Below, piece by piece: positions 3,001-17,572 of a stretch of 20,469 bases of DNA. A model generated the notes under the pieces. That model had not been told where the DNA came from, searched no databases, and saw only the letters and a program-made list of their open reading frames with translations. Each line of letters begins with the position of its first letter. Positions within the stretch are counted from its first letter, which is position 1. The stretch is taken from assembly GCA_002686955.1 (NCBI GenBank), contig NYZA01000168.1, positions 1 through 20,469 on the forward strand, read 5' to 3'. A program made the position numbers and the translations under genes. This DNA comes from Gemmatimonadota bacterium (lineage in GTDB: Bacteria > GCA-2686955).

Positions 3001-3296
3001 GGAGAGAGCGCACCCCCCGCCATCGCCCGCCCGAGCTGCCCGCCGCGGAGCGCAGCCTCGAGCGCGAGGTGGTAGGGACGCTCCCCGAGGCGCGGGCTCG
3101 GGCCGAGGCGAGACGCTGTATGCTCTGCGGTGGCTGCGCCACCTGTCGGGCCTGCGTCGACACCTTCGGCTGCCCGGCCTTCATCGTGCAGGCCGGCGCG
3201 ATCCGGATCGACGCCGCCCAGTGCACGGGCTGCGGAGTCTGCGCCGATTTCTGCCCGAACGGGGCGATCAGCCGCGTGCCGGAGCCGGTCTCATGA
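1..3296 (+). CDS. iorA: 2-oxoacid (indolepyruvate-type) ferredoxin oxidoreductase alpha subunit fused to GltD-like FAD/NAD(P)H module and ferredoxin; 5' partial
   Basis: The gene is cut by the window start. The frame opens at base 3 and already reads GVGFATGYPGTPSSE (nt 6-50), the conserved start of the pyrimidine domain of IorA, so only some 10-30 residues are missing and the GTG at 51 is internal. Next come CSACPHRA (1029-1052) and the thiamine-diphosphate site GDSTFFHAG with MDNGITAMTG (1236-1346). After a short Cys cluster (about 1617-1656) there is a GltD-type module: N-terminal Fe-S helical domain (Cys-rich, 1746-1911), FAD dinucleotide fold GAGPAG (2037-2054) and a second nucleotide fold GGGNAG (2433-2450). 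The C-terminus has Cys-rich ferredoxin motifs (from 3117; CTGCGVCADFCP 3222-3257). Family role: oxidative decarboxylation of aryl- or other 2-oxoacids to acyl-CoA. The fused flavoprotein suggests NAD(P) as final acceptor (inference). Overlaps iorB by ATGA. Confidence 0.9.
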   Translation, partial: AGVGFATGYPGTPSSEVTDSFAELSDEAGGVFEYAVNEKICLELAFGASLAGARAICAMKHLGLMVAGDPLSTIPYVGVRGGLVVVAAGDPSCLTSPNEQDQRHLGRMLHFPVLDPSTPAEARSLTMAAFELSEESGLPVLLRITTRVAHCRGVVPVGGLPRGARGAGFERDKRRLVPIPAHARRMRVELKGRMERAKGWSERLFEREGAGKVAILAAGAPAATAADLLRELGLEERVVLARLPVVHPLPEERIAGLLAEMEAVLVVEELSGFVEDALRALCAERGLEVAVHGKRSGHLPEEHEYRPEVIQRGVHVALGLGCAPPRAPASDDAPPPARPPVLCSACPHRATFFAAKAVFGDEHLYFNDIGCYTLGFAPPLDCGDVVLSMGSSISLASGASRVGGERTVCFIGDSTFFHAGMPALLDAIRQGVEVVVVVMDNGITAMTGFQESAGGGRGHEGSGGVPIGGVARALGAGHVEVFDPTDLAEAVSAFERARDGKGVSVLVAESPCPVHMQRETGEPMHRGAFQIDPALCATCGRGGCGMECGQSVRESTQRNMVRGRSLELSRKGGGEEPAVAPCAEQCPLGLCIQGYAGHVAAGEYDAALELIMGRNPLPDSVCRVCHRPCEDACIRGGLDGAVAVNDLKRFVIDWAAEQPEPPYRPEVEPEHGRSVAVVGAGPAGLAAAHELRLRGYGVTLYDREERAGGLLRSGIPRFRLPAVALERDIQRILDLGVRFEGGKALGTGLTLEGLLTDDGHDAVFLAIGAHRPLALELPREGGEGAPIVLDALRFLDGETRAAEGREVVVVGGGNAGIDAARGAALAGATRVTVIERESGLTALEHEIGCAADEGVALRPGWEPVALVGREGGGPGIRCRESGSTGSERERVIRAGLVVVAVGQEVDVGALADREPGLELTEDGRVAVDATTGRGSHGRIFAGGDMIPGQRSVIHAIASGQRAAWGIDRALRGEAAADHRAPPPKPGAWPVPSLAGLEIERRERTPRHRPPELPAAERSLEREVVGTLPEARARAEARRCMLCGGCATCRACVDTFGCPAFIVQAGAIRIDAAQCTGCGVCADFCPNGAISRVPEPVS

Positions 3297-3892
3297 CGCG
3301 CGCCACCGACCTTCTGGGAATCCTGGTGGTGGGAGTCGGGGGACAGGGCGCCATCACCCTCGCCCGGCTCCTGGGCGAGGCCGCCTTCGCCGAGGGCTTG
3401 CCGGTGCGGATCGGACAGGTACACGGCATGTCGCGACGCGGCGGCTCGGTGGAATCGACCGTGGTGATCGGGCCCGGGCGGGGCCCCTTTTTGCCTTTGC
3501 GGGGGGCCGATCTCGTGGTTGCTCTGGAGCCTTTGGAGCTGCAGCGGGCGAGGCCTCGACTGCATGCCGGAACCCGCGTTGTCGCCAGCACCGGTAGGGT
3601 CGTGCCGACAACGCTGGCGCTCCGCGGCGAGGAGTACCCCGACACCGACCGGTGGCTCGAAGCGCTGCGTCCCGAGATCGCCGAGCTGGTTCTGCTCGAC
3701 GGCCTCGAGCTGGCCGCCACGGCCGGAACCCGGAAGGCGGTGGGGGCGGTGATGCTCGGTGCGCTCGCATGCCGGTCCTGGTTGCCTTTCGGGCCGGAGC
3801 GGGTGTTCGAAGTGTTGCAAAAGCACTCATCGGCGGCCCATCGAGAAGCCAACCGGCGGGCCTTCGCGGCGGGAAGGAGGGGGGCGGCATGA
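3293..3892 (+). CDS. iorB: 2-oxoacid ferredoxin oxidoreductase beta (gamma-domain) subunit, IorB-like
   Basis: A 199-residue protein starting at the ATG inside the ATGA overlap with the alpha subunit; the open frame upstream of this ATG is only an overlap of the alpha gene. It begins with a glycine-rich fold (VVGVGGQGAITLARLLGEAA) and the family signature GQVHGMSRRGGSVES at about residues 40-54. These mark the pyruvate/ketoisovalerate oxidoreductase gamma-type domain that pairs with the thiamine-containing alpha subunit in the cytoplasm. Length is typical for a stand-alone IorB. Its stop overlaps the hyuA start by ATGA, so translation is probably coupled in both directions. 2-Oxoacid specificity cannot be read from the sequence. 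An aryl-pyruvate substrate is suggested by family, and the aminotransferase in the same operon fits. Confidence 0.9.
   Translation: MTRATDLLGILVVGVGGQGAITLARLLGEAAFAEGLPVRIGQVHGMSRRGGSVESTVVIGPGRGPFLPLRGADLVVALEPLELQRARPRLHAGTRVVASTGRVVPTTLALRGEEYPDTDRWLEALRPEIAELVLLDGLELAATAGTRKAVGAVMLGALACRSWLPFGPERVFEVLQKHSSAAHREANRRAFAAGRRGAA
3874..3880 (+). promoter_or_regulatory. Shine-Dalgarno site fixing the hyuA start
   Basis: AAGGAGG lies 8 nt before the ATG at 3889 and 20 nt before the second in-frame ATG at 3901. The first ATG is therefore preferred. The site lies inside the last codons of iorB. Confidence 0.7.
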
Positions 3893-3912
3893 CGCACCGA
3901 ATGACGCACCGA
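3889..3912 (+). repeat. Perfect 12-bp tandem duplication of the hyuA start codon region
   Basis: ATGACGCACCGA occurs twice back to back (3889-3900 and 3901-3912). The encoded N-terminus is MTHRMTHR, with two in-frame start codons. The first copy also supplies the iorB stop codon (TGA at 3890-3892). Confidence 0.95.
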
Positions 3913-5979
3913 ATCGGTATCGATGTGGGGGGGACCTTTACCGATCTTTTCTTCTGGTCGCAGGACCGCGCTCCCGAGACCTTCAAGGTGCTCAGCACTC
4001 CCGACGACCCCTCGCGGGGGGTGCTGGAGGGGATGCGGGCGATCGCCGAGGCGCACGATCTCACTCTCGAAGAGTTGGCGGCCGAAACCGGTCTCGTCGT
4101 GCACGGAACCACCGTGACGACCAACGCCTGTTTGACGCGCGGCGGTGCGTCAACCGGGCTGATCACGACCCCCGGTGTGCGGGATGCGCTGGAGATGCGG
4201 CGCGGCATTCGAGAGCGGCAGTACGACAACCGCTACACCAACGTGGTGCCGCTGGTCCCCCGACATCTGCGCCTTCCGGTGGGGGGGCGCCTCGACGCGG
4301 GGGGAAACGAGCTGGAGCCGCTCAACCCGGACGAGGTGCGAGAGGCGGCGGCGCTCTTCCGCGCCGAGGGGGGGGAGGCGATCGCGGTCTGCCTGATGCA
4401 CTCCTATGCCGACGACCGGCACGAGCGCGCCGTCGCCGAGCTCTTGCGGGCCGAGCTACCGGATGCCTGGCTCAGCATCTCCTCCGAAGTGCTGCCCACC
4501 ATCCGCTTCTACGAGCGGGTCTCCACGACCGTGACCAACGCCTACGTGGGGCCGATCTTGCGGAGCTATCTGGCGGCCCTGGGCTCGAAGCTGGCGGGGA
4601 TCGGCTTCGAGGGGGTGCTGCTGATCATGCAATCGAACGGTGGCGTCGCCCTGCCCGACGTGGTCCGCGATCGTCCCGCCACCACGCTGCTGAGCGGCCC
4701 GGCGGGGGGGCCAAGGGCGGCCGCCACCTACGCCGGCGCCCTCGGTCGCGACGACTGCCTCTTGGTCGACATGGGGGGCACCAGCTTCGACGCGAGCCTG
4801 GTGCGCGAAGGCGCCGCGGCGCTCGGCAGCGGGGGCGAGCTCGATCGCATCCGGATCGCGCTGCCGATGCTCGACATCGCAACGATCGGGGCGGGGGGGG
4901 GAAGCGTGGGCTGGATCGACGCGGGGGGGTTGCTGCGGATGGGTCCTCAGTCCGCCGGAGCGATGCCGGGACCCGCCTGCTACGGCCGGGGGGGAGAGAG
5001 GCCGACCTGCACCGACGCCGATCTGGTGCTGGGCTATCTCGACCCGGATTGGTTCGCGGGCGGCAAGCTGCCCCTCTTCGCGGAGCGGGCGACGGCGGCG
5101 ATCCGGGAGCATGTGGCGGGCCCTCTGGAGATCTCGGAGGAAGAGGCCGCGGCCGGAATGTACACGGTGATCAACACCAACATGGCGCACGGGGTTCGCG
5201 AGATCACCATCAAGCGGGGCCTCGATCCCCGCGAGTTCCCGATGGTGGTGGCGGGCGGGGCGGGGGCGCTGCACGCCTGCGCCATCGCCGCAGAGCTGGA
5301 GATCCCCTCGATCATCGTCCCTCCGACCGCATCGACCCTCTGCGCGACCGGCATGCTGCTCTGCGACTTGCAGCACGATTTCGTCCGTTCTTGCCTGGGC
5401 TCGCTCGAAGCGCTCGACCTCGCCGATCTCTCTTCGATCGTCGACGAGCTGGCGGCCGAAGGGGAGGGGCAGTTGCTCCGAGAGGGGGCGGCCGAGACCA
5501 TGCATCATGTGGCGCTCGATCTGCGCTATCTCAAGCAGTACCACGAGGTCACCGTCTCGATCGAGCGCGGCGATCTCGAGCGCGGCGACCTCCGCGCGAT
5601 CGCGGCGCGCTTCCACCAAGCCCACAACCGGCTCTACGGCTACGATCTGGAAGAGGTCGGCACCGGGCTGGAGCTGATCAACGTGCGGGTCCGTTCGGTG
5701 GGACGAAGCGCCCGCCCCGAGCTCCCCGAGCTTCCGCCGGGCGGCGCCGAGAGCGACCATGCCCTCAAGGGGCGCCGCCGCGCCTGGCTGCCCGCCCGCT
5801 CCCGATTCGGCGAGCTGCCGGTCTACGACGGCCACGCCCTGCGCCCCGGCAATCGGCTGGGCGGTCCGGCCCTGATCGAGAGGGTCGACACCACGATCCT
5901 CGTCACCACCCCCTTCGCCGCCGAAGTGGACCCGCGCGGAAGCGTTGTCCTCGAAACCGGGGAGGCGAGCCATGCCTGA
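3889..5979 (+). CDS. hyuA: Hydantoinase/oxoprolinase family subunit A (HyuA-like)
   Basis: A 696-residue protein, normal length for HyuA. The N-terminal actin/ASKHA-like ATP site IGIDVGGTFTD is at residues 9-19. HGTTVTTNA follows at 72-80, the second phosphate-binding region LLSGPAGG near 270, DMGGTSFDAS at 294-303 and GAGGGS at 335-340. Family members hydrolyse ATP to open a lactam or imide ring (N-methylhydantoin, 5-oxoproline, caprolactam) or to carboxylate ketones (acetone, acetophenone), always with a B subunit, here encoded next. The start at 3889 is chosen for its AAGGAGG site and its ATGA overlap with iorB; the frame is open further upstream within iorB but has no family match there. 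Ring opening or carboxylation cannot be told apart from sequence alone. A nine-G run (4893-4901) encodes part of GAGGGS without breaking the frame. Confidence 0.9.
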   Translation: MTHRMTHRIGIDVGGTFTDLFFWSQDRAPETFKVLSTPDDPSRGVLEGMRAIAEAHDLTLEELAAETGLVVHGTTVTTNACLTRGGASTGLITTPGVRDALEMRRGIRERQYDNRYTNVVPLVPRHLRLPVGGRLDAGGNELEPLNPDEVREAAALFRAEGGEAIAVCLMHSYADDRHERAVAELLRAELPDAWLSISSEVLPTIRFYERVSTTVTNAYVGPILRSYLAALGSKLAGIGFEGVLLIMQSNGGVALPDVVRDRPATTLLSGPAGGPRAAATYAGALGRDDCLLVDMGGTSFDASLVREGAAALGSGGELDRIRIALPMLDIATIGAGGGSVGWIDAGGLLRMGPQSAGAMPGPACYGRGGERPTCTDADLVLGYLDPDWFAGGKLPLFAERATAAIREHVAGPLEISEEEAAAGMYTVINTNMAHGVREITIKRGLDPREFPMVVAGGAGALHACAIAAELEIPSIIVPPTASTLCATGMLLCDLQHDFVRSCLGSLEALDLADLSSIVDELAAEGEGQLLREGAAETMHHVALDLRYLKQYHEVTVSIERGDLERGDLRAIAARFHQAHNRLYGYDLEEVGTGLELINVRVRSVGRSARPELPELPPGGAESDHALKGRRRAWLPARSRFGELPVYDGHALRPGNRLGGPALIERVDTTILVTTPFAAEVDPRGSVVLETGEASHA

Positions 5980-7711
5980 GTCGCGCATCGACAAGATCCT
6001 CGTCTCGGTTCTCGGGCGCGCCCTGAAGGCGATCGCGGACGAGATGAGCCTGACGATGGAGAAGACCACCCGCTCTCCCATCCTTTGCGAGGCGAAAGAT
6101 TTCGTCACCGGGCTCTACGACGCCGAGGGGAGGATGCTTGAGCAGACCGAGAACCTGCCGATCCTGAGCTTCTCTCTGAGCCCGGTCTGCGAGCATATCG
6201 CCCGCAAGTTCGCGGGTCGCATCTACCCCGGCGATGTCTTCTTCCACAACGACGTCTTCTCCCTGGGCAACCAGAACAACGATGTCGCCGTCTTCAAACC
6301 GGTCTTCCACGGCGACCGCCTCGTGGCCTGGACCGCGGCCAAGGGGCACATGGCCGATATCGGGGGGGCGGTGCGCGGCGGCTACAACCCGAACGCCACC
6401 GAGGTCTGGCAGGAGGCGCTGCGGATCCCCGCAGTGAAGGTCTACGAGCGGGGGGAGCTGCGCGAAGATGTCTGGGACCTCATCTTCGCCAACATCCGCC
6501 TCGACATCGTGCAAGAGGATATGCGAGCGGAGATCGGCGCCTGCACGGTGGGCGAGCGCCGCCTCTTGGCGTTGATCGACAAGTACGGGTTGGATGTTTT
6601 CGAGAGCCACAAATGGGCGCTTTTCGCCGCCACGAAGAAGATGATGGAAGCGGAGATCCGCATCATCCCCCACGGGAAGTACCGCGGCGAGGCGACCGTC
6701 TACTACGACGGCAAGAATCCGGGCTCCACCTACCGGATCCGCGTCGAAGTGCGCGTCGAAGATGGAGGTATCGTCTTCGATTTCAGCGAGACCGACCCGC
6801 AGACCAACGGATTCGTCAACGGCACCTTTACCTCGTCGGCGTCGGCCTGCATCCTCACTTTCCTGCAGATGGTGAACCCCGACCTCCCCCACAACGCGGG
6901 GATGACCGAGCCGATCTCGATGCTCATCCCCGAGGGCACGATCCTCAACGCGGCCTATCCCGCCGCCACCACCTTCGGGAACCATCTCTGTCCCCCCCTG
7001 GCCGATTCGATCATCCGCGCTCTGGCGCCGGTGATCCCGGAGCGCGTCACGGCCGGCTGGAACAACCTGCTCTGCTCCCTCTCCACCGGCGATCATCCCG
7101 GCCGGGGCGAGCCTTACGTCGACATTATGTTCATGGGGCTCAAAGGGGGCAGCGGCGCCACCTGCGACACCGACGGCTACGATCACATCGGCATGATCGA
7201 CGCGTCGGGCGGCGTGCTCGACCAGGACTACGAGATGTTCGAGCAGATGACGCCGCACCGCCTCATCCGCCACGAGCTCCTGCGCGACTCGGCCGGCCCG
7301 GGCCGGCACCGGGGGGGACTGGGCGTCGAAACCCGCTACGTCGTGGGCAGCGACGACACCCAGATCGTGGTCTTCGGCGACGGCGACGTGGAGCCCGCTT
7401 TTGGACTGGAGGGAGGGGGGGACGGGACCCTGAATCGGATCGAGCTTCGACTTCCCGACGGCAGTGTGCGGGTTCCCACCAGCAAGGATCTGCTGACCGG
7501 AATCCCGAAGGGGACGCTCTATGTGCAGCGGGCGGGGGGGGGCGGCGGCTTCGGTGACCCGAAGGAGCGCCCCGCGGACCGCGTGCGAGACGAGGTGCGC
7601 GCCGGCACCCTCAGCGTCGAGGCGGCCCGCGAGCACTACGGCGTGGTCGTCGATCCCGACACCTTCGAGCTCGACACGGCGGCCACGGAGGGTCTGAGAG
7701 GGAGAGACTGA
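5972..7711 (+). CDS. hyuB: Hydantoinase/oxoprolinase family subunit B (HyuB-like)
   Basis: A 579-residue HyuB-type protein. The ATG at 5972 has GGAGG (5961-5965) six bases upstream and overlaps hyuA by 8 nt; an upstream TTG in the same frame is not needed. Family landmarks are GDVFFHNDVF (HND at residues 92-94), KGHMADIGG (H126, D129), and the glycine-rich tail GGGGGFGDPKERP followed by EVRAGTLSVEAAREHYGVVV, which closes most HyuB proteins. It forms the catalytic heteromer with HyuA. In this superfamily the same pair can be N-methylhydantoinase, 5-oxoprolinase, caprolactamase or acetone/acetophenone carboxylase alpha. No small gamma subunit of acetone-carboxylase type follows, which mildly favours a lactam or imide substrate (inference). 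A nine-G tract at 7534-7542 encodes part of the conserved tail with the frame intact. Confidence 0.9.
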   Translation: MPESRIDKILVSVLGRALKAIADEMSLTMEKTTRSPILCEAKDFVTGLYDAEGRMLEQTENLPILSFSLSPVCEHIARKFAGRIYPGDVFFHNDVFSLGNQNNDVAVFKPVFHGDRLVAWTAAKGHMADIGGAVRGGYNPNATEVWQEALRIPAVKVYERGELREDVWDLIFANIRLDIVQEDMRAEIGACTVGERRLLALIDKYGLDVFESHKWALFAATKKMMEAEIRIIPHGKYRGEATVYYDGKNPGSTYRIRVEVRVEDGGIVFDFSETDPQTNGFVNGTFTSSASACILTFLQMVNPDLPHNAGMTEPISMLIPEGTILNAAYPAATTFGNHLCPPLADSIIRALAPVIPERVTAGWNNLLCSLSTGDHPGRGEPYVDIMFMGLKGGSGATCDTDGYDHIGMIDASGGVLDQDYEMFEQMTPHRLIRHELLRDSAGPGRHRGGLGVETRYVVGSDDTQIVVFGDGDVEPAFGLEGGGDGTLNRIELRLPDGSVRVPTSKDLLTGIPKGTLYVQRAGGGGGFGDPKERPADRVRDEVRAGTLSVEAAREHYGVVVDPDTFELDTAATEGLRGRD

Positions 7712-7715
7712 GACG

Positions 7716-8834
7716 ATGGACTTTGCTCTGAACGAGATCCAAAGCGCGGTCCAGAGGACCTTCGCCGAGTTCTCCGACCAGCGGATCGGGCCGGTGGCGG
7801 CGGAGCTGGACCGAAAGGCCGAATTCCCTCTCGAGCTCTTCCGGCAGGTGGGTGATCTAGGCTACTTCGCTATGCGCTACCCCGAGCCCGAGGGGGGAGG
7901 CATGGATGTCCTCTCCTATGCTCTGGCCACCGAGGAGCTCGCCCGGGGAAGCCTCGGGGTGGCGGCGGGCTGCGCCATGCAGTCGCTGATGGGCACGACC
8001 TTCGTCCACCGCTTCACCTCGGGGGCGCTGCGCGAACGCCTCGTCGGACCGGCTCTGAGGGGAGAGATCCTGGGGACGGTCTGCATGACCGAGCCCGATT
8101 CGGGCAGCGACCTCTTCTCGATGAAAACGCGGGCGGAGCTGCGCGGCGACACCTGGCATCTCACGGGACAGAAGATGTGGATCACCTCGGCGCCGGTGGC
8201 CGACCTTTTTACCGTCTTCGCGCGGACCGGTGAGCGCGTCCTGAGCGTGTTCCTGGTGGAGCGTGGCGCCCCGGGACTGAGCGTCGGCCGCACCATCGAC
8301 AAGATGGGGGTCAAGGCTTCGGTCACCTCGGAGGTCGGCTTCGAAGACGTACCGGCCACCGCCCTTCTGGGGGAGCTCGACCAGGGCGCGATCTACCTGC
8401 GCGACTTACTGGCCGAGGTGCGCGTCATGACCGGGGCGCTCGCCCTGGGCACCGCCCGGGCCGCCTTCGACGACGCGCGGCGCTACTCGGAAGAGCGGCG
8501 GCAGTTCGGCAAGCCGATCAACCGCTTCGGCGCCGTCCAGGCCCACCTCGCCGAGATGGCGGTCGACCTGGAAGCGGCCCGGCATATGGTGCGCTGGGCG
8601 GCCTGGCGCAGCGACCAGGGACTGCCGAACGCTCAGGAGGCCTCGATGGCCAAGCTCTTCGCGTCGGAGGCGGCGCTTCGGATCTGCGATCGGGCGGCAC
8701 GGATCATGGCGAGCTACGGATATGCGGAGGAGTACGCTGTGCAGCGCTATCTGCGGGACGTCCGCTTCACACTCATCGGCGGCGGAACCTCCGAGCTGCT
8801 GAGGGTCAACATCGCCCGGGGGCTCTCGCAATGA
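7716..8834 (+). CDS. Acyl-CoA dehydrogenase family flavoprotein
   Basis: A 372-residue acyl-CoA dehydrogenase of normal length, starting 4 nt after hyuB behind a purine-rich GGGAGAG site. It shows the N-terminal helical domain, the FAD-contacting mid-domain (VCMTEPDSGSDLF, GQKMWITSA) and the C-terminal helices (YSEERRQFGKPINRF, YGYAEEYAVQRYLRDVR). It should oxidise an acyl-CoA to the 2,3-enoyl-CoA and pass electrons to an electron-transfer flavoprotein; no etf genes are in the window. The usual catalytic glutamate just before the C-terminal GTSE is glycine here (IGGGTSEL, Gly356). The alternative helix-G base of isovaleryl/long-chain types, expected right before an Arg, is Val235, with Glu234 one residue further back. 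It may use Glu234 or another base. Ends in an ATGA overlap with the next gene. Confidence 0.9.
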   Translation: MDFALNEIQSAVQRTFAEFSDQRIGPVAAELDRKAEFPLELFRQVGDLGYFAMRYPEPEGGGMDVLSYALATEELARGSLGVAAGCAMQSLMGTTFVHRFTSGALRERLVGPALRGEILGTVCMTEPDSGSDLFSMKTRAELRGDTWHLTGQKMWITSAPVADLFTVFARTGERVLSVFLVERGAPGLSVGRTIDKMGVKASVTSEVGFEDVPATALLGELDQGAIYLRDLLAEVRVMTGALALGTARAAFDDARRYSEERRQFGKPINRFGAVQAHLAEMAVDLEAARHMVRWAAWRSDQGLPNAQEASMAKLFASEAALRICDRAARIMASYGYAEEYAVQRYLRDVRFTLIGGGTSELLRVNIARGLSQ

Positions 8835-9232
8835 GAGATCGTCCCATCAGGGTGCTGATCGCGAAACCGGGCCTCGACGGCCACGATGTGGGCGCGAAGG
8901 TGCTCTGCCGCGCTCTGCGCGACGCGGGCATGGAGGTGATCTACACCGGCTTGCGCCAATCCCCGAAGGCGATCGCGGCCGCCACACTCCAAGAAGATGC
9001 GCGGGTGCTCGGGCTCTCGGTCCTCTCCGGGGCGCATCTGCCTCTCTGCCGTCGCATCGGGGAGCTGCTGGAGGAGCAGGGCGGCCTCTCGGGGCTGCTC
9101 TGGCTGGTGGGGGGCAACATCCCCCGGCGCGACCTGCCCGCCCTCGAAGCGCTCGGAGTGCGGGGCGTCTTCCCCACCGGATCGCATTTCGACGAGATCG
9201 TCGCCTTCATCGAGAGAGAGGCCCCCCAATGA
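8831..9232 (+). CDS. Cobalamin-binding small subunit of acyl-CoA mutase
   Basis: A 133-residue stand-alone B12-binding domain. It carries the base-off/His-on motif: Lys12, then GLDGHDVG with Asp16 and His18 as the expected cobalt-ligating pair (Lys604, Asp608 and His610 in Propionibacterium methylmalonyl-CoA mutase). GLSVLSGAH and VGGNIP, which cradle the nucleotide tail, follow. It is the size of the separate C-terminal domains found in two-gene mutases. It overlaps the acyl-CoA dehydrogenase (ATGA, 8831-8834) and the large subunit (ATGA, 9229-9232), so the two mutase chains are made in a coupled way. No MeaB/ArgK-type G-protein chaperone gene is in the window. Confidence 0.93.
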   Translation: MRDRPIRVLIAKPGLDGHDVGAKVLCRALRDAGMEVIYTGLRQSPKAIAAATLQEDARVLGLSVLSGAHLPLCRRIGELLEEQGGLSGLLWLVGGNIPRRDLPALEALGVRGVFPTGSHFDEIVAFIEREAPQ

Positions 9233-10836
9233 GCCGTCCCGAGCCCGAGCCCGCCCCGCTGCGCTGGGAATCCGGACTGGAGATTCAGCCGGTCTACACC
9301 GCCGGGGATGTCGAGCGGAGCGGCGGGACCGACGGCGTCGGCGAGCCGGGGGAGTTCCCCTACACCCGCGGCATTCACCGCCACATGTACCGGACGCGGC
9401 CCTGGACCATGCGTCAATACTCCGGCTTCGGCACCGCCGCCGAGACCCACGAGCGCTTCCTCTATCTGATCAAACAGGGGAATACGGGGCTCAATGTCGC
9501 CTTCGATCTGCCGACCCAGTGCGGCCTCGATTCCGACGATCCGCTGGCGCGGGGCGAGATCGGCCGGGTCGGGATGGCGGTAGATACCCTGGCCGATATC
9601 GAAGAGGCGTTCGCCGATATCGACCTGGACCGGATCACGGTCTCGATGACGATCAACGGCTCGGCCGTCGTGCTGATGGCGATGTACTTCGCCATGGCCC
9701 GCAAGCGGGGCTATGAGCTAAGCAAGCTGCGCGGCAACGCCCAGAACGACATCTTGAAGGAGTTCATCGGACGGGGGACCTGGATCTTCCCGGTGCGCGA
9801 ATCGGTCCGGCTCGTCGGCGACACGATCGAGTTCTGCGCCGAGCACGCCCCGAAGTACTCGCCGGTCAGCGTCTGCGGCTATCACATTCGAGAATCCGGC
9901 GCGACACCGGCCCAGGAGATGGCCTACGGGCTTTCGATCGCCTGCGCCTATCTGGAGCACGCCCTGGAACGGGGGCTGCCGGCCGACCCCTGCGCCGCCG
10001 GGCTCACCTTCAACTTCGATATCTTCGGCGATCTCTGGGAGCAGGTGGCCAAGTTCCGCGCGGGGCGGCGGCTCTGGGCGAAGCTGCTGCGCGAGCGCTA
10101 TGGCGTGAGCGATCCCCGGGCGCTCAAGCTGCGCATGATCGCCGGCGGCGGCGGGGGCGGGTTGACGATTCAGCAGCCGCACAACAACATCGTTCGTGGC
10201 GCCTACTACGCCATGACTTCGGCCCTCAGCGGAACCCAGACGATGGCGCTCTGCAGCTACGACGAGGCCTACACCATTCCGAGCGAGCATGCGGCCACTC
10301 TCTCGCTTCGCACGATGCAGATCCTCGCCACCGAGATCGGTCTCTGCGACACCGTCGATCCCCTGGCCGGGTCCTGGTTCGTGGAGACGACCACCAACCA
10401 GATGGAGAAGCTGATCCTCGAGCAGATGGAGGAGCTGGGCGAGCAGGGCGGCATCATCGAGGCGGTCGCGTCCGGCCAGGTGCAGGCTGCGGTGAACCGG
10501 CAAGCCTATGAGCGGGAGCGGCGGGTGCAAAGCGGCGAGATCGAGAAGGTGGGAGTCAACTGCTTCACCCATCAGGAGGAGGAGCAAGAGGTCGACTTCC
10601 ACCCCTACCGTGAAGAGGAGGCAAGAAAGCAGCTCGTCCGACTCGCGGCGATCAAAGAGGAGCGGGACGGGCGGGCGGTCGAGGCGCGTTTGGGGGAGGT
10701 TCTGGCGGCGGCGGCCGAGGGCCGAAACACGATGCCGGCGATCATCGATGCGGTGGAGGCCTACGCGACGGTCGGCGAGGTTGTCGGGCGGTTGCGGGAT
10801 GTTTTCGGCGGCTACCGCGAGCCGGTGAGCTTCTGA
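9229..10836 (+). CDS. Methylmalonyl-CoA-mutase-like large (catalytic) subunit, divergent active site
   Basis: A 535-residue TIM-barrel subunit of the adenosylcobalamin acyl-CoA mutase family, without its own B12 domain, which is supplied by the preceding gene. Landmarks are TMRQYSGFGTA, VAFDLPTQCGLDSD, QNDILKEFIGRGTWIFP, GYHIRESGAT and YDEA. Aligned by eye to Propionibacterium methylmalonyl-CoA mutase, without gaps from Tyr89 to Arg283, Tyr64, Gln172, Arg182, His219 and Glu346 match Tyr89, Gln197, Arg207, His244 and Glu370. Tyr89 and Arg207 bind the substrate carboxylate, so a dicarboxylic acyl-CoA is expected; isobutyryl- and hydroxyisobutyryl-CoA mutases lack this pair. Arg283, His328, Gln330 and Asn366 are replaced by Gly258, Ile304, Gly306 and Cys342, with six glycines at 306-311. 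I call the family with confidence but not the substrate. Its stop shares one base with the next start (TGATG). Confidence 0.92.
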   Translation: MSRPEPEPAPLRWESGLEIQPVYTAGDVERSGGTDGVGEPGEFPYTRGIHRHMYRTRPWTMRQYSGFGTAAETHERFLYLIKQGNTGLNVAFDLPTQCGLDSDDPLARGEIGRVGMAVDTLADIEEAFADIDLDRITVSMTINGSAVVLMAMYFAMARKRGYELSKLRGNAQNDILKEFIGRGTWIFPVRESVRLVGDTIEFCAEHAPKYSPVSVCGYHIRESGATPAQEMAYGLSIACAYLEHALERGLPADPCAAGLTFNFDIFGDLWEQVAKFRAGRRLWAKLLRERYGVSDPRALKLRMIAGGGGGGLTIQQPHNNIVRGAYYAMTSALSGTQTMALCSYDEAYTIPSEHAATLSLRTMQILATEIGLCDTVDPLAGSWFVETTTNQMEKLILEQMEELGEQGGIIEAVASGQVQAAVNRQAYERERRVQSGEIEKVGVNCFTHQEEEQEVDFHPYREEEARKQLVRLAAIKEERDGRAVEARLGEVLAAAAEGRNTMPAIIDAVEAYATVGEVVGRLRDVFGGYREPVSF

Positions 10837-12050
10837 TGGTCGAGAGAGATAAGCGTCCCGTCGTTCTCAGCCTCGAGCAGGCGCTGAGCATGTCGTACGC
10901 CACCCTGCGCATGGTCCACCAGGGCTGGCGCGTGATCCGGGTCGAGCCGACGCCGCTCCCCGGTCGCAAGAGCAAGGGCGATCCGAACCGCTACATCGGC
11001 CGTCCCGTGGCGGGAGAGGATCGGCACAGCTACTTCGTGGGGCCGAACGTCGGAAAGGAAGCGATCGCCCTCAACCTGCGCAGCGAAGAGGGGCTGGCGG
11101 TGCTGCAGCGCCTGATCCGCGAGCTGCCGGTCGATGTTTTCTGCACCAACACGATGCCCGCTCGCCACGCCTCGCTGGGCATCACCCACGAGCAGCTTCG
11201 GGAGCAGCGCGACGATCTGATCTGGTGCTGCATCTCGGCGATGGGTCTGGATCACCCCGATGTGCCCGGCTACGATCCGGTGGTGCAGGCGCAATGCGGC
11301 TATATGGATCTCACCGGTCCGGGGGACGGGCCTCCCACCCAATGCGGCCCTCCGCTGATCGACCTGAAGGCGGGGGACGAAGCATTCACCCAGGTGGTCT
11401 TGGCGCTCTGGCGGCGAGCGGAAGGGGCCGGGGGGCGCTGCATCGATATTTCGATGGCGCGAGCGGCGGTCTCCTGGCTACACACATTTCTGCCGATGCT
11501 CGACATGGGCAGCCCGCCCGAGGAGCTGCGACGATCCGGGAACGAGCACCGGCAGTTCATCCCGGTCAACGCCTATCGCACGGCCGACGGCTATATCTAT
11601 GTCGCCATCGGCAGCGACGTTCAGTGGCGGCGCTTCGTGGGTGAAGCGACGTTCGCGTCTCTCGATCAGAAGCGCTTCGCCACCAACGAATCGCGGCGGG
11701 CCGAGAAGGAGACACTGTTTCGGCTGATGGAGGAGATCACGCTCCGGCACAGCGCGGAGCGGATCGCCGAGGTTCTGCGTGCGGCCCTGATCCCACACGC
11801 GCCGATCGTTCCGATCGAGGGGGTTCTAGACCTGCCTTTCGTGGCGGAGACCCACCTCGAGACGATCGCTCCCGACGGGCGGATGGTGCGCTTGCCCCCG
11901 GCGGCGGTGCAGACGCCGCACTTGGAGAGTGAGGGGCCGACCCTCCCCTTCGCCCCGGCCTACGGCGAGCACACGGCGGCCCTGCTCTCGGAGATCGGGC
12001 TGGCGCCCGGCGAGATCGCGTCGCTGCGTCGATCGGGAGCCGTCGCGTGA
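10836..12050 (+). CDS. CaiB/BaiF (class III) CoA transferase family protein
   Basis: A 404-residue protein of usual family length. The ATG overlaps the mutase stop by one base. Recognisable family regions are NVGKEAIALNLRSEEG, the VDVFCTNTMPARHASLGI segment, YDPVVQAQCGYMDLTG, the presumed catalytic aspartate in PLIDLKAGDEA (Asp176, counterpart of Asp169 of formyl-CoA transferase), GRCIDISMARAAVSWL, and GNEHRQFIPVNAYRTADGYI. Such enzymes move CoA between two carboxylic acids through an aspartyl-CoA thioester in the cytoplasm. Here it could activate the pathway acid with succinyl-CoA or acetyl-CoA, or recycle CoA from the mutase product; its place beside the mutase fits either (inference). Donor and acceptor cannot be assigned. 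It ends in a GTGA overlap with the next gene. Confidence 0.88.
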   Translation: MVERDKRPVVLSLEQALSMSYATLRMVHQGWRVIRVEPTPLPGRKSKGDPNRYIGRPVAGEDRHSYFVGPNVGKEAIALNLRSEEGLAVLQRLIRELPVDVFCTNTMPARHASLGITHEQLREQRDDLIWCCISAMGLDHPDVPGYDPVVQAQCGYMDLTGPGDGPPTQCGPPLIDLKAGDEAFTQVVLALWRRAEGAGGRCIDISMARAAVSWLHTFLPMLDMGSPPEELRRSGNEHRQFIPVNAYRTADGYIYVAIGSDVQWRRFVGEATFASLDQKRFATNESRRAEKETLFRLMEEITLRHSAERIAEVLRAALIPHAPIVPIEGVLDLPFVAETHLETIAPDGRMVRLPPAAVQTPHLESEGPTLPFAPAYGEHTAALLSEIGLAPGEIASLRRSGAVA

Positions 12051-12895
12051 GCAGCTACCACCGTCCCCCGAGCGTCGCCGAGGCGCTGCGCCTGAAGAGA
12101 GAGCTGCCCGGTTCGAGCTTCATCGCCGGGGGGACCGACCTGCTGGTGCAGATGAAGGACCGCGTGCGCCAGCCCACGGCGCTGATCTCGATCCGCCACC
12201 TTTCGGAGCTGACGAGAATCGAGACTGATGGCGGTGCCCGGCTGGGGGCGGCCACCCCCCTGAGCGATCTGGCCGACGATTCCGCTCTGATGACCGGCTG
12301 GCCGATCCTCGGCGAGGCTTTGCGGGACTTCGCTTCGGTGCAGATCCGAGGCTCCGCGACGATCGGCGGAAACCTCTGCAACGGCTCCCCCGCGGCCGAC
12401 GCCGCTCCGGCGCTCATCGTGCTCGGCGCGCGGGTTCGAATCGCCGGTCTCGACGGAGAGCGCCTGCTCCCGGTGGAGCAGCTCTTCGAGGCGCCCGGGC
12501 GCACCCGGGTGAGGGAGGAGGAGCTCCTGGTTTCGATCGAGCTCGATCCACCTCTGCCCTCGGGCCACGGAGTCTTCCTCAAGAAGATGCGAACGGCGAT
12601 GGATGTTTCGCTGGCCAGCATCGCCTCTCTGGCTCTCTTGCGGGACGGGAGGCTGGAAGAGATCCGCCTGGCCGCGGGCTCGGTGGCGCCGGTCCCGATG
12701 CGCCTTCACGAGACCGAAAAGGTGTTGCGAGATCGCCCACTCACCCCGGAACGGATCGCCGAGGCACGGCGGGTCGCCCGCGACGAGGTCCGGCCGATCA
12801 CCGACATCCGCGCCGGGGCCGACTATCGCCGCCACATCGTCGGCGTTTTCGTACAGCGCGCCCTCGAAGCGACACTTGAGAAGGGAGATCGCTGA
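12047..12895 (+). CDS. Molybdenum hydroxylase FAD-binding (medium) subunit, CoxM/XdhB-like
   Basis: A 282-residue protein beginning at a GTG that overlaps the CoA transferase stop (GTGA). It has both pyrophosphate-binding FAD loops of the family: AGGTDLLV (residues 27-34) and GSATIGGNLCNGSPAAD (102-118). The C-terminal CO-dehydrogenase flavoprotein domain ends near LRDRPLTPERIAEARRVA. It passes electrons from the Fe-S subunit to an acceptor. It lacks the extra [4Fe-4S] insertion that marks the beta subunit of 4-hydroxybenzoyl-CoA reductase, so that specific reductase is unlikely. The gene order FAD, Fe-S, Mo subunit is common for three-subunit bacterial enzymes. Its stop shares one base with the start of the Fe-S subunit (TGATG). 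Confidence 0.9.
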   Translation: MSSYHRPPSVAEALRLKRELPGSSFIAGGTDLLVQMKDRVRQPTALISIRHLSELTRIETDGGARLGAATPLSDLADDSALMTGWPILGEALRDFASVQIRGSATIGGNLCNGSPAADAAPALIVLGARVRIAGLDGERLLPVEQLFEAPGRTRVREEELLVSIELDPPLPSGHGVFLKKMRTAMDVSLASIASLALLRDGRLEEIRLAAGSVAPVPMRLHETEKVLRDRPLTPERIAEARRVARDEVRPITDIRAGADYRRHIVGVFVQRALEATLEKGDR

Positions 12896-13374
12896 TGGAG
12901 CTCAACTTCACTCTGAACGGTGTTCCGATCTCCTGCTCCCTGCCGCGGGGCTCGGAGCTGCTCCTGGACGTGCTTCGCGGGCCCTTGGAGCAGACCGGTA
13001 CGAAGGAGGGCTGCGGCAAGGGGGAGTGTGGCGCTTGCACCATTTTGGTGGAGGGGCGCATGGTCAATGCCTGCCTGACCCTCGCCGCCGAGGTCGAAGG
13101 GTGCGAAGTGACGACGATCGAAGGTCTGGCGGCCGGCGGGAGCGAGCTGGCCGCGGAGCAGCGGGCCTTCGTAGAGCAGGGGGGCATCCAATGCGGCTTC
13201 TGCAGCCCCGGAATGATCATGAGCGTCCGCGCCCTACTCGATCGCGATCCCGATCCACCCGAGGCCGAGATCCGCCGCGCCCTCGCCGGCAATCTCTGTC
13301 GCTGCACCGGCTATTCGCAGATCGTCGAAGCGGTGCGGCGGGCGGCCGAGCTACGCCGGGAGGAGGCGCGATGA
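12895..13374 (+). CDS. Molybdenum hydroxylase [2Fe-2S] (small) subunit, CoxS/XdhC-like
   Basis: A 159-residue two-cluster protein. The plant-ferredoxin-like N-terminal domain supplies Cys40, Cys45, Cys48 and Cys60 (GCGKGECGACTILVEG then NAC). The helical domain supplies Cys100 and Cys103 (QCGFCSPGM) and Cys135 and Cys137 (NLCRCTGY). All eight ligands and Gln99, next to the molybdenum-proximal cluster, are present, so electron transfer should be intact. Length is normal. Overlaps the large subunit start by ATGA. Confidence 0.95.
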   Translation: MELNFTLNGVPISCSLPRGSELLLDVLRGPLEQTGTKEGCGKGECGACTILVEGRMVNACLTLAAEVEGCEVTTIEGLAAGGSELAAEQRAFVEQGGIQCGFCSPGMIMSVRALLDRDPDPPEAEIRRALAGNLCRCTGYSQIVEAVRRAAELRREEAR

Positions 13375-15794
13375 GCCCCTATCTAGGCAAGGCGCGCCCC
13401 CGGCCGGACGCCGCGGAGAAGGCGACGGGGCGCGCGGAGTACATTCACGATATCCGCAGGCCCGGCATGCTCCACGCCGCGATCCGCTTCAGCGAGCATG
13501 CCCACGCCCGCATCAAGGGGATCGACACCCTCAAGGCGGAGCGGATCCGCGGCGTGCGGGCGGTGATCACCGCGCAAAACACCCCCGAGATCCGCCTTGG
13601 CTTCCTGCGGGACAACGTCGCGCTCAAAGGGGAGAAGGTGCGCCAGTTCCGCGACGAGGTCGCCGCGGTCGCCGCCATCGATCCCGATGTCGCCGCGGAG
13701 GCGGCGGCGGCGATCGAGGTGGAGTACGAGCCGCTGCCCGCCCTATTCGACCCCGCCTCGGCGCTGGACGAAGGGGCCCCCCTCGTCCACGAGCGCGACG
13801 CCGCCGGTCGCCCCCTCGAGACGAATCTGATGCCGGTGCACTTCCGCCACAGCTCGGGCGACATCACCGCCGCGCGCTCCGCCGCCGCCCACGCCGTCTC
13901 GGGCGAGTTCTCCACGCCGCTCATCCAGCAGAGCTGCATGGGCACCGCCGGAGCCCTCGCCGAATTCGACCCGCGCATGAACCTCACCATCTGGGCCAAG
14001 ACCCAGATCCCCTTCCTCGCCCAGCGCGACTTCAACAGTGCCTTGAGCCAGATCGGGCTCGCTGGAAGAAACACTCGCGTCATCGTCCCCGCCCTCGGCG
14101 GCGGATTCGGCACCGGCCTCGATACCCACTGCTACGAATACATCGCCATCCTCCTCGCCTGGCGGACCGGCAAGCCGGTCAAGATCCTCTACAAGCGCGA
14201 TCAGGAGTTCGCCTACCTCTCCCCCCGCCAATCCTCCACCGTCCGCATCAGCCAGGGCTGCGACGCCGGGGGGCGCCTCACCTTCCGCGACGTGCACGTC
14301 ACGCAGGACAACGGCGCCTACGGGTCGTGGGGCGCGACCTATCCCAGCGTGATGATGATCCCCGCGACCTCCCTCTACCGCGTGCCGAATATCGAGTTCG
14401 ACTGCGAGTTGGTCTACACCAACAACACCTATGCGCAGGCGATGCGCGGCTACGGCAACCCCGAGCTGACCTGGGCCCTGGAATCGAATCTGGACGAGCT
14501 CGCCGAGGCCGCCGGCATCGACCCGCTGGAGATCCGCCGGATCAACTGCAACGAGCCGGGCGAGGTCACCCCGATGGGGCTTCGCGTCACCACCTGCGGG
14601 CTGCGCGAATGCATTGAGGGCGTGGGTGAGCGCCTCGGCTGGAAGAACAAAGGGGGATGGGGCGCGGGCAAGAAGCGCGGCGTCGGACTGGCCTCGATGG
14701 TGCACGTCGGGGGCTCCGGCCGGATCTACCGGAGCGACGCCAGCGGCGTGATCCTGCGCCTCGACGACTACGGCAACCTCTACGTCGCGTCGGGCGGCGT
14801 CGACATGGGCCAAGGCCTGCACAGCGCGCTCCAGATCATGGCCGCGGACTCGGTGGGGGTCGACCCCGAGCGCGTCTTCATCACCCAGACCGATACCTCC
14901 ACCTGCCCCTGGGATGTCGGCACCCACGCCAGCCGCGGCGCCTTCACCGCCGGCAACGCCCTCCTGATGGCGGCCGAGAAGATGCGTCGCCAACTATTCG
15001 AGGCGGCGATCGATCTCTATCCCGATCTGGTGGAGCAGGCGAGGCGAAGCTGGATCCGCGCCAATCCCGACACTCCACCCGCGGACTTCGATTGGCGCGC
15101 CTCGGTCGCTCCCGAGCGTTTCCAGCTTCGAAACAATCTTCTCTCTCTTCGAGACACGCCGCCGATCCCCTGGCTCGAGATCGACCTGGCCAAGCTGATC
15201 CGCGCCGCGCACTTCCGTGCGGGAGGCGGCGAGATGTTCACGGTCGAGGCCTTCTACGATCCCCCGAGCGAGCTTCCCGATTGGGAACGCGGCCAAGGAA
15301 ATATGTCGGCCTGTTACACCTACGGCACTCAGGGTGTAGAGGTCGAGGTCGATACAGATACGGGGGACGTGAAGATCGTCGCAATGGTCTCCGTCCTCGA
15401 TGTCGGCCGGGTGATCAACCCCCAGGCCTTGCGCGGACAGATCGTGGGCGCCATCGCGCAGGGCGTTGGTTACGCGCTCTACGAGCAGGTGATCACCGAA
15501 AAGGGACGGATCCTCAACCCCAACTTCACCGACTACAAGATCCCGACCGCGGTAGAGATAGATTTCCCTTTGGACCTGGAGTACATCGAGACCGACGAGC
15601 CCGCCGGCCCGTACGGCGCGAAAGGGATCGGAGAGCCTGGCCTCACACCGACAGCTCCGGCGATCGCCAACGCCATCTTCGACGCCGTCGGCGTTCGTGT
15701 GCGGGATCTCCCGATCACTCCCGAGAGACTCCTGGCCGCCCTGCACGCCCGTTACGACGATCACATTCCACGGAGAGCACCCAATGCCCGATGA
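13371..15794 (+). CDS. Molybdenum hydroxylase molybdopterin (large) subunit, xanthine dehydrogenase family
   Basis: An 807-residue subunit starting at the ATG that overlaps the Fe-S subunit by ATGA; the open frame further upstream lies over the two preceding genes. Features are the N-terminal KATGRAEYIHDI region, GGGFG at residues 243-247, MRGYGNPE (family usually MRGFG.PQ), GGVDMGQG with the cofactor-contacting Gln481, and the catalytic glutamate in GIGEPG (Glu755). The AYRCSFR active-site loop of form I CO dehydrogenase is absent, so this is not a CO oxidiser. The family hydroxylates electron-poor ring carbons next to nitrogen or, as hydroxybenzoyl-CoA reductase, removes a ring hydroxyl. 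With HyuAB in the same operon, hydroxylation of an N-heterocycle to a lactam is a reasonable guess. No maturation factor (XdhC/CoxF-type) or molybdopterin cytosine gene is visible here. Its last 11 nt overlap the next gene. Confidence 0.92.
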   Translation: MSPYLGKARPRPDAAEKATGRAEYIHDIRRPGMLHAAIRFSEHAHARIKGIDTLKAERIRGVRAVITAQNTPEIRLGFLRDNVALKGEKVRQFRDEVAAVAAIDPDVAAEAAAAIEVEYEPLPALFDPASALDEGAPLVHERDAAGRPLETNLMPVHFRHSSGDITAARSAAAHAVSGEFSTPLIQQSCMGTAGALAEFDPRMNLTIWAKTQIPFLAQRDFNSALSQIGLAGRNTRVIVPALGGGFGTGLDTHCYEYIAILLAWRTGKPVKILYKRDQEFAYLSPRQSSTVRISQGCDAGGRLTFRDVHVTQDNGAYGSWGATYPSVMMIPATSLYRVPNIEFDCELVYTNNTYAQAMRGYGNPELTWALESNLDELAEAAGIDPLEIRRINCNEPGEVTPMGLRVTTCGLRECIEGVGERLGWKNKGGWGAGKKRGVGLASMVHVGGSGRIYRSDASGVILRLDDYGNLYVASGGVDMGQGLHSALQIMAADSVGVDPERVFITQTDTSTCPWDVGTHASRGAFTAGNALLMAAEKMRRQLFEAAIDLYPDLVEQARRSWIRANPDTPPADFDWRASVAPERFQLRNNLLSLRDTPPIPWLEIDLAKLIRAAHFRAGGGEMFTVEAFYDPPSELPDWERGQGNMSACYTYGTQGVEVEVDTDTGDVKIVAMVSVLDVGRVINPQALRGQIVGAIAQGVGYALYEQVITEKGRILNPNFTDYKIPTAVEIDFPLDLEYIETDEPAGPYGAKGIGEPGLTPTAPAIANAIFDAVGVRVRDLPITPERLLAALHARYDDHIPRRAPNAR

Positions 15795-16272
15795 GAAGAT
15801 CCTGCATCGTTTCGATATCCTCTGCCAGATCACCCGAGCGCAACACTTCGCCTGGCGCCGGGCGGTGGCCGAGCTCGCTCCGGATGTCGCCCCGGCGGCC
15901 GTCGTCGACCGCATGTGGGAGCTGACCGGCGAGCAGACCGGCGAGAGCTACGCCCGCCGCATCGACCGGAATCAACCGCTGGCAAGACAGGTCGCCGCCA
16001 GCATCGTCTGGTCGTCGGAGTGCATGGGCGAAGCGGCCTACCTGGAGGAAGGCAGGGGCGACGAGGCGTTCGTCGTGCACAACGAATGCCCGTGGTTCGA
16101 TTGGCACGAGAAGCTCGGACTACTGGCCGAAGACCGGCCGGGCTGCGACATCTGGTTCCAGAAAACCGTTGCCAGGGTCAATCGCGAGCTAGGCACCGAC
16201 CTGCGCTGCGAGACCCTCGATTCCCTCCCCGACGGAGGCGAATGTTGTCGCCGCCGCTTCTGGGTAGCCTAG
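15784..16272 (+). CDS. Small Cys/Trp-rich cytoplasmic protein, possibly L-2-amino-thiazoline-4-carboxylate hydrolase-like
   Basis: A 162-residue protein with no signal peptide or membrane segment. The ATG at 15784 has GGAG (15772-15775) eight bases upstream and lies 11 nt inside the molybdenum subunit gene; a longer open frame upstream has no such site. The N-terminal half is helical and charged. The C-terminal half has HNECPWFDWHEKLG, a middle Cys (RPGCDIWFQK) and a closing LPDGGECCRRRFW. That pattern (CPW, mid-domain Cys, late Gly-x-x-Cys-Cys before an aromatic end) recalls the ATC-hydrolase/DUF6125-like small proteins that sit beside CoA and redox enzymes. I recall this family from shape only, so the match is tentative. 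Its position between the hydroxylase and the aminotransferase implies a role in the same pathway, perhaps hydrolysis of a C-N bond or metal/cofactor handling. Confidence 0.8.
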   Translation: MPDEKILHRFDILCQITRAQHFAWRRAVAELAPDVAPAAVVDRMWELTGEQTGESYARRIDRNQPLARQVAASIVWSSECMGEAAYLEEGRGDEAFVVHNECPWFDWHEKLGLLAEDRPGCDIWFQKTVARVNRELGTDLRCETLDSLPDGGECCRRRFWVA

Positions 16273-16281
16273 GAGCTCCTC

Positions 16282-17430
16282 ATGCAGATCGGTCGGAAAG
16301 CCGCCGACTACGACTACCCGAATCGGATGAGCGTCGTCCTCCCATCCGGGATCCGCAAGCTCTTCGACGCGGGCCGCCTTCGCCCCGACTGCGTCGATCT
16401 GTCGATCGGCCAGGCCGATTTCGACGTTCCCGAGGCGATCAAGGCGGCGACAGTCTCCGCCATCGAGCAGGGATGTGGACGCTACAGTCCCACCGAAGGT
16501 TTTCCCGAGCTGGTGTCTGCCATCACGACCCACCTGCGGGAGAGTTACGGACTGCCCGAGGGAGAGCAGGTCATGACCACCAGCGGGGCCAGCGGGGCGT
16601 TGACTCTCGCCCTGCTGGCGCTCGTCGGTCCCGACGATGAAGTGCTCATGCCCGACCCCCATTTCGTCATCTATCGCAACCTCGCACTCATCGCGGGCGC
16701 ACGCCCGATCTACCACGATATCTATCCCGATTTCCGTCTCTACCCCGAACGGGTAGAAGCGGCGATCACCGACCGCACCCGCGTCTTGATCCTGAATTCC
16801 CCCGCGAACCCAACCGGTGCCTGCGTGGCCGCCGAAGACTTGGAAGCGGTCTCGGAAATCTGTGTTCGCAGAGGTGTCTTCGTCATCAGTGACGAGCTGT
16901 ACGAGACCTTCATCTACGAGGGGGAGCACGCCACCATCAAACAACATCTGAGCGAACAATCGTTGTTGGTCGGGGGGCTCTCGAAATCGTATGGCATGGC
17001 GGGCTGGCGACTCGGCTGGGCCGCCGGCTCACCGGCCTTGATCGACAAAATGCGTACTCTCCAGCAGTTCATGTACACCTGCCCTCCGACCCTCGTGCAG
17101 AAGGGGGCGCTGGCCGCATTCGGACTCGACATGAGCGAGCAGTTGCGAAACTACCGCCGAAAACGCAACATGGTGTTCAACGGCCTGCGAGAAGCGGGCT
17201 ACGAAGTCACCAAGCCCCAGGGAGCCTTTTTCATCTTCCCCCGAGTGCCTTGGGGAAACGACCTGGAGTTCACAACCGCTGCCGCCAAGCAGGGGTTGTT
17301 GGTGGTTCCGGGCAGCGCATTCTCACAGCGGAACACACACTTTCGCCTCAGCTTCGCCGTGCCGGACGAGGTGATCGAGCGTGGGATCGAGAAGTTGGGC
17401 GAGTTGGCGGTGATGGGCGATTCCAAGTGA
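16282..17430 (+). CDS. Class I/II PLP-dependent aminotransferase (aspartate/aromatic type)
   Basis: A 382-residue fold-type I aminotransferase of usual length. The ATG lies 6 nt after AGGAG (16271-16275), which overlaps the previous stop. The pyridoxal phosphate site is complete: GASGAL phosphate loop near residue 97, NSPANPTG with Asn176, SDELYE with Asp204 and Tyr207, the Schiff-base lysine in GGLSKSYGMAGWRLGW (Lys235) and the substrate carboxylate arginine in FRLSFA (Arg355). It would convert an amino acid to a 2-oxoacid in the cytoplasm, which the oxidoreductase at the other end of the operon could then decarboxylate to an acyl-CoA. The exact amino acid cannot be predicted. It is the last gene of the operon: a 142-nt gap and a change in composition follow. 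Confidence 0.92.
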   Translation: MQIGRKAADYDYPNRMSVVLPSGIRKLFDAGRLRPDCVDLSIGQADFDVPEAIKAATVSAIEQGCGRYSPTEGFPELVSAITTHLRESYGLPEGEQVMTTSGASGALTLALLALVGPDDEVLMPDPHFVIYRNLALIAGARPIYHDIYPDFRLYPERVEAAITDRTRVLILNSPANPTGACVAAEDLEAVSEICVRRGVFVISDELYETFIYEGEHATIKQHLSEQSLLVGGLSKSYGMAGWRLGWAAGSPALIDKMRTLQQFMYTCPPTLVQKGALAAFGLDMSEQLRNYRRKRNMVFNGLREAGYEVTKPQGAFFIFPRVPWGNDLEFTTAAAKQGLLVVPGSAFSQRNTHFRLSFAVPDEVIERGIEKLGELAVMGDSK

Positions 17431-17462: not shown

Positions 17463-17562
17463 GGGAGCCACGCATGCGCGTTTGCTGCGTGCCCGACAGG
17501 GGCTGGATCGCCCGTGCTTTTGAACGCGTGCGCCAAGAGTGGCTGCCTGCAATGCCATTGCT

Positions 17563-17566
17563 GGAG
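17563..17566 (+). promoter_or_regulatory. Shine-Dalgarno site fixing the beta-helix protein start
   Basis: GGAG lies 6 nt before the ATG at 17573. This ATG puts a basic, then hydrophobic, segment (MRHRPVGAVAAVFFVAHA) at the N-terminus, as expected for a signal peptide. An upstream in-frame ATG at 17474 would bury that segment behind 33 unlikely residues. Confidence 0.55.
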
Positions 17567-17572
17567 TTGAGA

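Follow-up and report, generated by a model that had tools for sequence, protein, structure and literature searches.

An IaaG-type adenosylcobalamin-dependent mutase in a putative tryptophan and indoleacetate degradation operon of a Gemmatimonadota bacterium

The DNA stretch analysed here (20,469 nucleotides, referred to as the window) is contig C168 (NYZA01000168.1) of a Gemmatimonadota genome assembly (GCA_002686955.1), which comprises 4.28 Mb in 270 contigs and is 84.5% complete. The window contains a single compact operon on the + strand, in which most adjacent genes overlap by a few bases. At its upstream end the alpha subunit of an indolepyruvate oxidoreductase (IOR) is encoded as a fusion with a GltD-like NAD(P)-binding flavoprotein (1..3296; TIGR03336, 538 bits; PRK12771, 384 bits). 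The 5' end of this gene is lost at the contig end, the frame being open to base 3. Fusion to the GltD-like iron-sulfur flavoprotein may make the IOR reaction NAD(P)-linked. Such a fusion also adjoins the iaa cluster in locus L031 (530-3931), and a weaker match was found in L032. The IOR beta gene follows (3293..3892; PRK06853/TIGR03334), and then the two subunits of a hydantoinase-like ATP-dependent lactamase are encoded: the A subunit (IaaCE large, 3889..5979; NF050156 CapA, 687 bits), which contains the phosphate motif DVGGTFTD, and the B subunit (IaaCE small, 5972..7711; NF050157 CapB, 382 bits). The next gene (7716..8834) encodes an acyl-CoA dehydrogenase of the decarboxylating benzylmalonyl-CoA dehydrogenase type (IaaF), recognised by a GGG where the YEG motif would stand.

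The mutase is encoded as two proteins. The small B12-binding subunit is of the IaaH type (8831..9232; PF02310, TIGR00640) and retains the KPGLDGHDxG (DxHxxG), SxL and GG motifs; the large, substrate-binding IaaG-type subunit of 535 amino acids is encoded by an intact open reading frame (9229..10836; Pfam MM_CoA_mutase, 600 bits). Downstream are genes for an IaaL-type family III CoA-transferase (10836..12050; PF02515) and for the FAD (12047..12895; PF00941, PF03450), 2Fe-2S (12895..13374; PF01799, PF00111) and molybdopterin (13371..15794; TIGR03194 and others, below their equivalog cut-offs) subunits of a xanthine-dehydrogenase-type molybdenum hydroxylase, which is probably 2-oxoindole-forming. 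They are followed by a small protein (15784-16272) weakly similar to L-2-amino-thiazoline-4-carboxylic acid hydrolase (PF14196, 23.7 bits, below cut-off), for which no match was shown among the 18 IaaG-type loci listed. The last gene of the operon encodes a PLP-dependent aminotransferase (16282..17430; class I aminotransferase families), a candidate tryptophan aminotransferase by its gene context. An aminotransferase and an IOR are also located beside iaa genes in a Planctomycetota MAG and a Flavobacteriales MAG. A gene for the CoA ligase IaaB was not seen within the window. On the 3' side of the operon lies a gene for a long repeat protein, beta-helix-like and rich in GGGIYC repeats (17474-19987), which has no relation to the pathway.

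The large subunit was compared with methylmalonyl-CoA mutase (MCM) of Propionibacterium (1REQ chain A), whose residue numbering is used throughout. The HMMER alignment has no gap from query residue 41 until one inserted residue near 288-289, which bears out the gap-free stretch with a single insertion that an earlier note on this DNA had seen by hand alignment. Five active-site residues are retained in the window protein, namely Tyr89 (Y64), Gln197 (Q172), Arg207 (R182), His244 (H219) and Glu370 (E346), the last of which is in contact with the Ado group of MCM (PMC4413051). Four are replaced: Arg283 by G258, His328 by I304, Gln330 by G306 and Asn366 by C342; all nine assignments agree with those of the earlier note. 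The MCM segment RTHSQTSG thus reads RMIAGGGG(GG), and LHTNS reads MALCS, so that the His-x-Gln and Asn present in MCM and ethylmalonyl-CoA mutase (ECM) are missing. Phe and Gln at the sites of Tyr89 and Arg207, a feature of isobutyryl-CoA mutase (ICM), were not found, Tyr and Arg being present. The earlier note's statement that hydroxyisobutyryl-CoA mutase (HCM) retains His-x-Gln and Asn proved correct, since 4R3U reads RFHCQT and LHTNG at these segments.

An AlphaFold model of the large subunit has a mean pLDDT of 90.5, and its best match in the PDB is 4R3U (TM 0.95; MCM, TM 0.93; full length; VIA Z 53). Residues 304 and 306 are predicted to lie on a strand (303-306) and residue 342 after a strand (338-340). 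By sequence, too, no chain in the PDB copy searched is nearer to the window mutase than 4R3U; hence this subfamily is one without a solved structure in that copy. Apart from the window mutase, IcmF is the only mutase that was found in this genome.

Aromatoleum aromaticum EbN1 and its iaa operon served as the reference. IaaF of this organism (ebA2055) is a benzylmalonyl-CoA dehydrogenase that decarboxylates and oxidises benzylmalonyl-CoA; a GGG that replaces the YEG motif marks IaaF, and IaaGH is the mutase step that precedes IaaF (PMC8360864). The genome of a Rhodocyclales relative served as the centre for a family search, and positive genomes were then searched for the iaaF forward cloning primer given in the same publication. 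In genome G292 this primer matches exactly, and the reverse primer matches exactly 1.1 kb downstream. Because both primers match exactly, the locus in this genome (L127) was taken as the EbN1 iaa operon. Its IaaG is 64% identical to the window mutase. It reads RMIAAGGGGG and MALCS in the two segments, and its residues at the nine sites are Y, Q, R, H, R, I, A, C and E. Identities to EbN1 are 57% for lactamase A, 72% for lactamase B, 56% for IaaF, 58% for IaaH and 54% for IaaL; for the hydroxylase they are 36% (FAD subunit), 48% (2Fe-2S subunit) and 40% (molybdopterin subunit). The gene order Hyu-Hyu-IaaF-IaaH-IaaG, adjoined by IaaL and the Xdh trio, is common to the window, EbN1 and MAG contigs of several phyla. 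The window IaaF, 56% identical to the published gene, ends in LIGGGTSE. GGG was found in all 34 acyl-CoA dehydrogenases adjoining IaaG-type mutases, and YEG or GEG in all ten others found.

In an LG+C20 tree the window mutase belongs to a clade of 13 rows that includes EbN1 IaaG (support 100/99) and is itself contained in an IaaG-like clade of 26 rows (support 100/99); 1REQ, human MCM and 4R3U lie elsewhere in the tree, as does the isobutyryl-CoA mutase type (FQQH rows). The larger clade has members from Rhodocyclaceae, other Proteobacteria, Planctomycetota, a Flavobacteriales MAG, sulfate reducers and Rokubacteria. His328, Gln330 and Asn366 are missing in 26 of its 26 rows, with His replaced by Ile or Leu, Gln by Gly or Ala and Asn by Cys or Pro. 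Because this loss recurs in every member of the clade, the substitutions are not due to chance. A description of the family-wide loss in IaaG was not found in the openly readable literature. Arg283 is retained by nearly all relatives; among the rows aligned, Gly at this site occurs only in the window protein, in its sister L027 and in L035, and it is the sole feature that sets these proteins apart from EbN1 IaaG. L027 is the nearest relative among the matches listed (73% identity), and the gene order is the same over the stretch that its contig covers. A collection of plasmids yielded relatives with at most 47% identity and no IaaG.

Rows outside the IaaG-like clade retain His-x-Gln together with Asn or Asp, with three exceptions. 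A Desulfobacterales mutase (L045:9896-11572) has Phe, Gly and Ala at the sites of His328, Gln330 and Asn366 and a different gene neighbourhood; it possibly represents another, still unassigned family of mutases. The mutases of L006 (1333-3072; Ala/Gly/Ala) and L051 (1311-2963; Phe/Gly/Met), likewise without His-x-Gln and Asn, branch beside the IaaG clade but outside of it. Within the clade a Rokubacteria subclade (L128:4300-19358; 56% identity to the window) has Pro at the Asn366 site. The neighbours in L128 are a lactamase pair, a GGG dehydrogenase, open reading frames that by eye are MaoC-like and amidohydrolase-like, and a hydroxylase large subunit. A near IaaG-type match is present in 40 of the 95 Rokubacteria genomes, and the substrate in this subclade may be a different one.

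Indoleacetate is the plant hormone auxin, derived from tryptophan, and bacteria use an IaaG-type mutase in its breakdown. By sequence the window mutase is a new member of this already named IaaG family. Together with IaaH it very probably forms a heteromeric mutase that depends on adenosylcobalamin and, in indoleacetate degradation, converts (2-aminophenyl)succinyl-CoA and (2-aminobenzyl)malonyl-CoA into each other. These compounds agree very well with the earlier note's expectation of a free-carboxylate substrate with a bulky group. For the first steps we infer an order in which the aminotransferase would convert tryptophan to indolepyruvate and the IOR would convert indolepyruvate to indoleacetyl-CoA, both substrates being guesses from the gene context. 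The molybdenum hydroxylase would then yield 2-oxoindoleacetyl-CoA, and the ATP-dependent lactamase would open its ring to (2-aminophenyl)succinyl-CoA; hydrolysis of the lactam of 2-oxoindoleacetyl(-CoA) has been assigned to the hydantoinase-like IaaCE (PMC5214803, PMC8453981). IaaL is proposed to shift the CoA to the other carboxyl group, IaaGH to rearrange the product to (2-aminobenzyl)malonyl-CoA, and IaaF to form 2-aminocinnamoyl-CoA and CO2. In IaaG, Tyr89 and Arg207 would bind the free carboxylate and Glu370 may be retained for the adenosyl group, while loss of His328, Gln330 and Asn366 would give a less polar cavity for the aminophenyl ring. A direct assay of IaaGH was not found in the papers searched, where the mutase is described as a step of the pathway.

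The added aminotransferase and IOR suggest that the cluster runs from tryptophan to 2-aminocinnamoyl-CoA. With both genes in the operon, and no CoA ligase gene seen within the window, tryptophan is probably the natural input, not indoleacetate from outside. Elsewhere in the genome, L136 (6494-10130) and L137 (8940-13108) contain genes for a HadBC-like dehydratase and its activator and for a set resembling BcrC, BcrB and BcrA/D, both below equivalog cut-offs. The four-gene BcrCBAD-like set is on contig C224. No member of the BamB-type aldehyde oxidoreductase family was found in this genome. The BcrCBAD-like set and the missing BamB-type match are consistent with a downstream ring reduction, at which they hint weakly.

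An IaaG-family mutase could act on a different, if related, aryl- or alkyl-substituted succinyl- or malonyl-CoA, in a cluster that degrades another lactam or heterocycle instead of indoleacetate. The confinement of Arg283 to Gly to the window, L027 and L035 would fit such a reading. So would the Rokubacteria subclade, in which Pro at the Asn366 site goes along with another gene set and the IaaG family may therefore have more than one substrate. We nevertheless regard a different substrate as improbable for the window, where homologues of IOR, aminotransferase, lactamase, IaaL and IaaF all occur together, lactamase B shares 72% identity with its EbN1 counterpart, and the first-shell segments RMIAxGGGG and MALCS are as in EbN1 IaaG.

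Still much less credible is an entirely new class of mutase, as raised in the earlier note, that would catalyse a new reaction. Four positions conserved in MCM and HCM are indeed replaced, and no near solved structure exists, 4R3U being the best sequence match. Substitutions at three of these four sites, however, occur in A. aromaticum IaaG too and throughout the clade, which has a conserved operon. A new class is ruled out by the position of the window protein inside the A. aromaticum IaaG clade, with which it shares the glycine stretch, MALCS and the operon context. The protein lies in neither of the MCM and ECM clades that the earlier note had named as a test; it falls within another mutase family that already has a name. 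Identity with MCM, ECM, HCM or ICM is likewise ruled out, by the residues and by the tree. A degenerate, inactive paralogue, for which the loss of otherwise conserved polar residues could speak, has next to no likelihood given an intact reading frame in a closely overlapping operon, retention of Tyr89, Arg207, His244, Glu370 and the B12 motif, substitutions conserved between distant phyla, a fold that is confidently predicted, and a genome in which IcmF is the one further mutase found.

Assignment to the IaaG family places an odd-looking mutase in a known pathway and in a nearly complete gene cluster. It extends the B12-dependent route of indoleacetate degradation to more phyla and ties it to the intake of tryptophan. 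The signature of the family (no His-x-Gln, no Asn, a GGGG stretch, MAL[CP]) separates arylsuccinyl-CoA-type mutases from MCM, ECM, HCM and ICM; general family models name them merely methylmalonyl-CoA mutase. IaaG is known but little studied, and its interest lies mainly in the family-wide residue loss and in the fact that the PDB copy searched contains no solved structure for it; as a natural large-pocket mutase it is a starting point for structural work. A bolder proposal, which we put forward tentatively and consider rather unlikely, is that IaaG constitutes a mechanistically distinct branch of adenosylcobalamin mutases, in which the polar His, Gln and Asn gave way throughout the family to a glycine-lined, less polar cavity for aryl groups, and that in the window protein and its sister, with Arg283 replaced by Gly, the CoA or substrate site may be altered further, in a one-cluster tryptophan route of a poorly sampled phylum.

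Among known systems, IaaGH of EbN1 is in the same clade as the window mutase and shares with it RMIAxGGGGG and MALCS, the separate B12 subunit and the operon partners. EbN1 IaaG differs in having Arg at the 283 site and Ala at the Gln330 site, where the window has Gly, and the window cluster additionally contains the IOR and the aminotransferase. 2-Hydroxyisobutyryl-CoA mutase (HcmAB, 4R3U) is the best solved structural match (TM 0.95) and has the same two-subunit layout, but it retains His, Gln and Asn and has Ile/Gln at the carboxylate pair instead of Tyr/Arg. Methylmalonyl-CoA mutase (1REQ, human MMUT) has the TIM-barrel fold and Tyr89, Arg207, His244 and Glu370 in common with the window mutase. 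It is located elsewhere in the tree and has H328, Q330, N366 and R283, all of which are replaced in the window, where the B12 domain is a separate protein.
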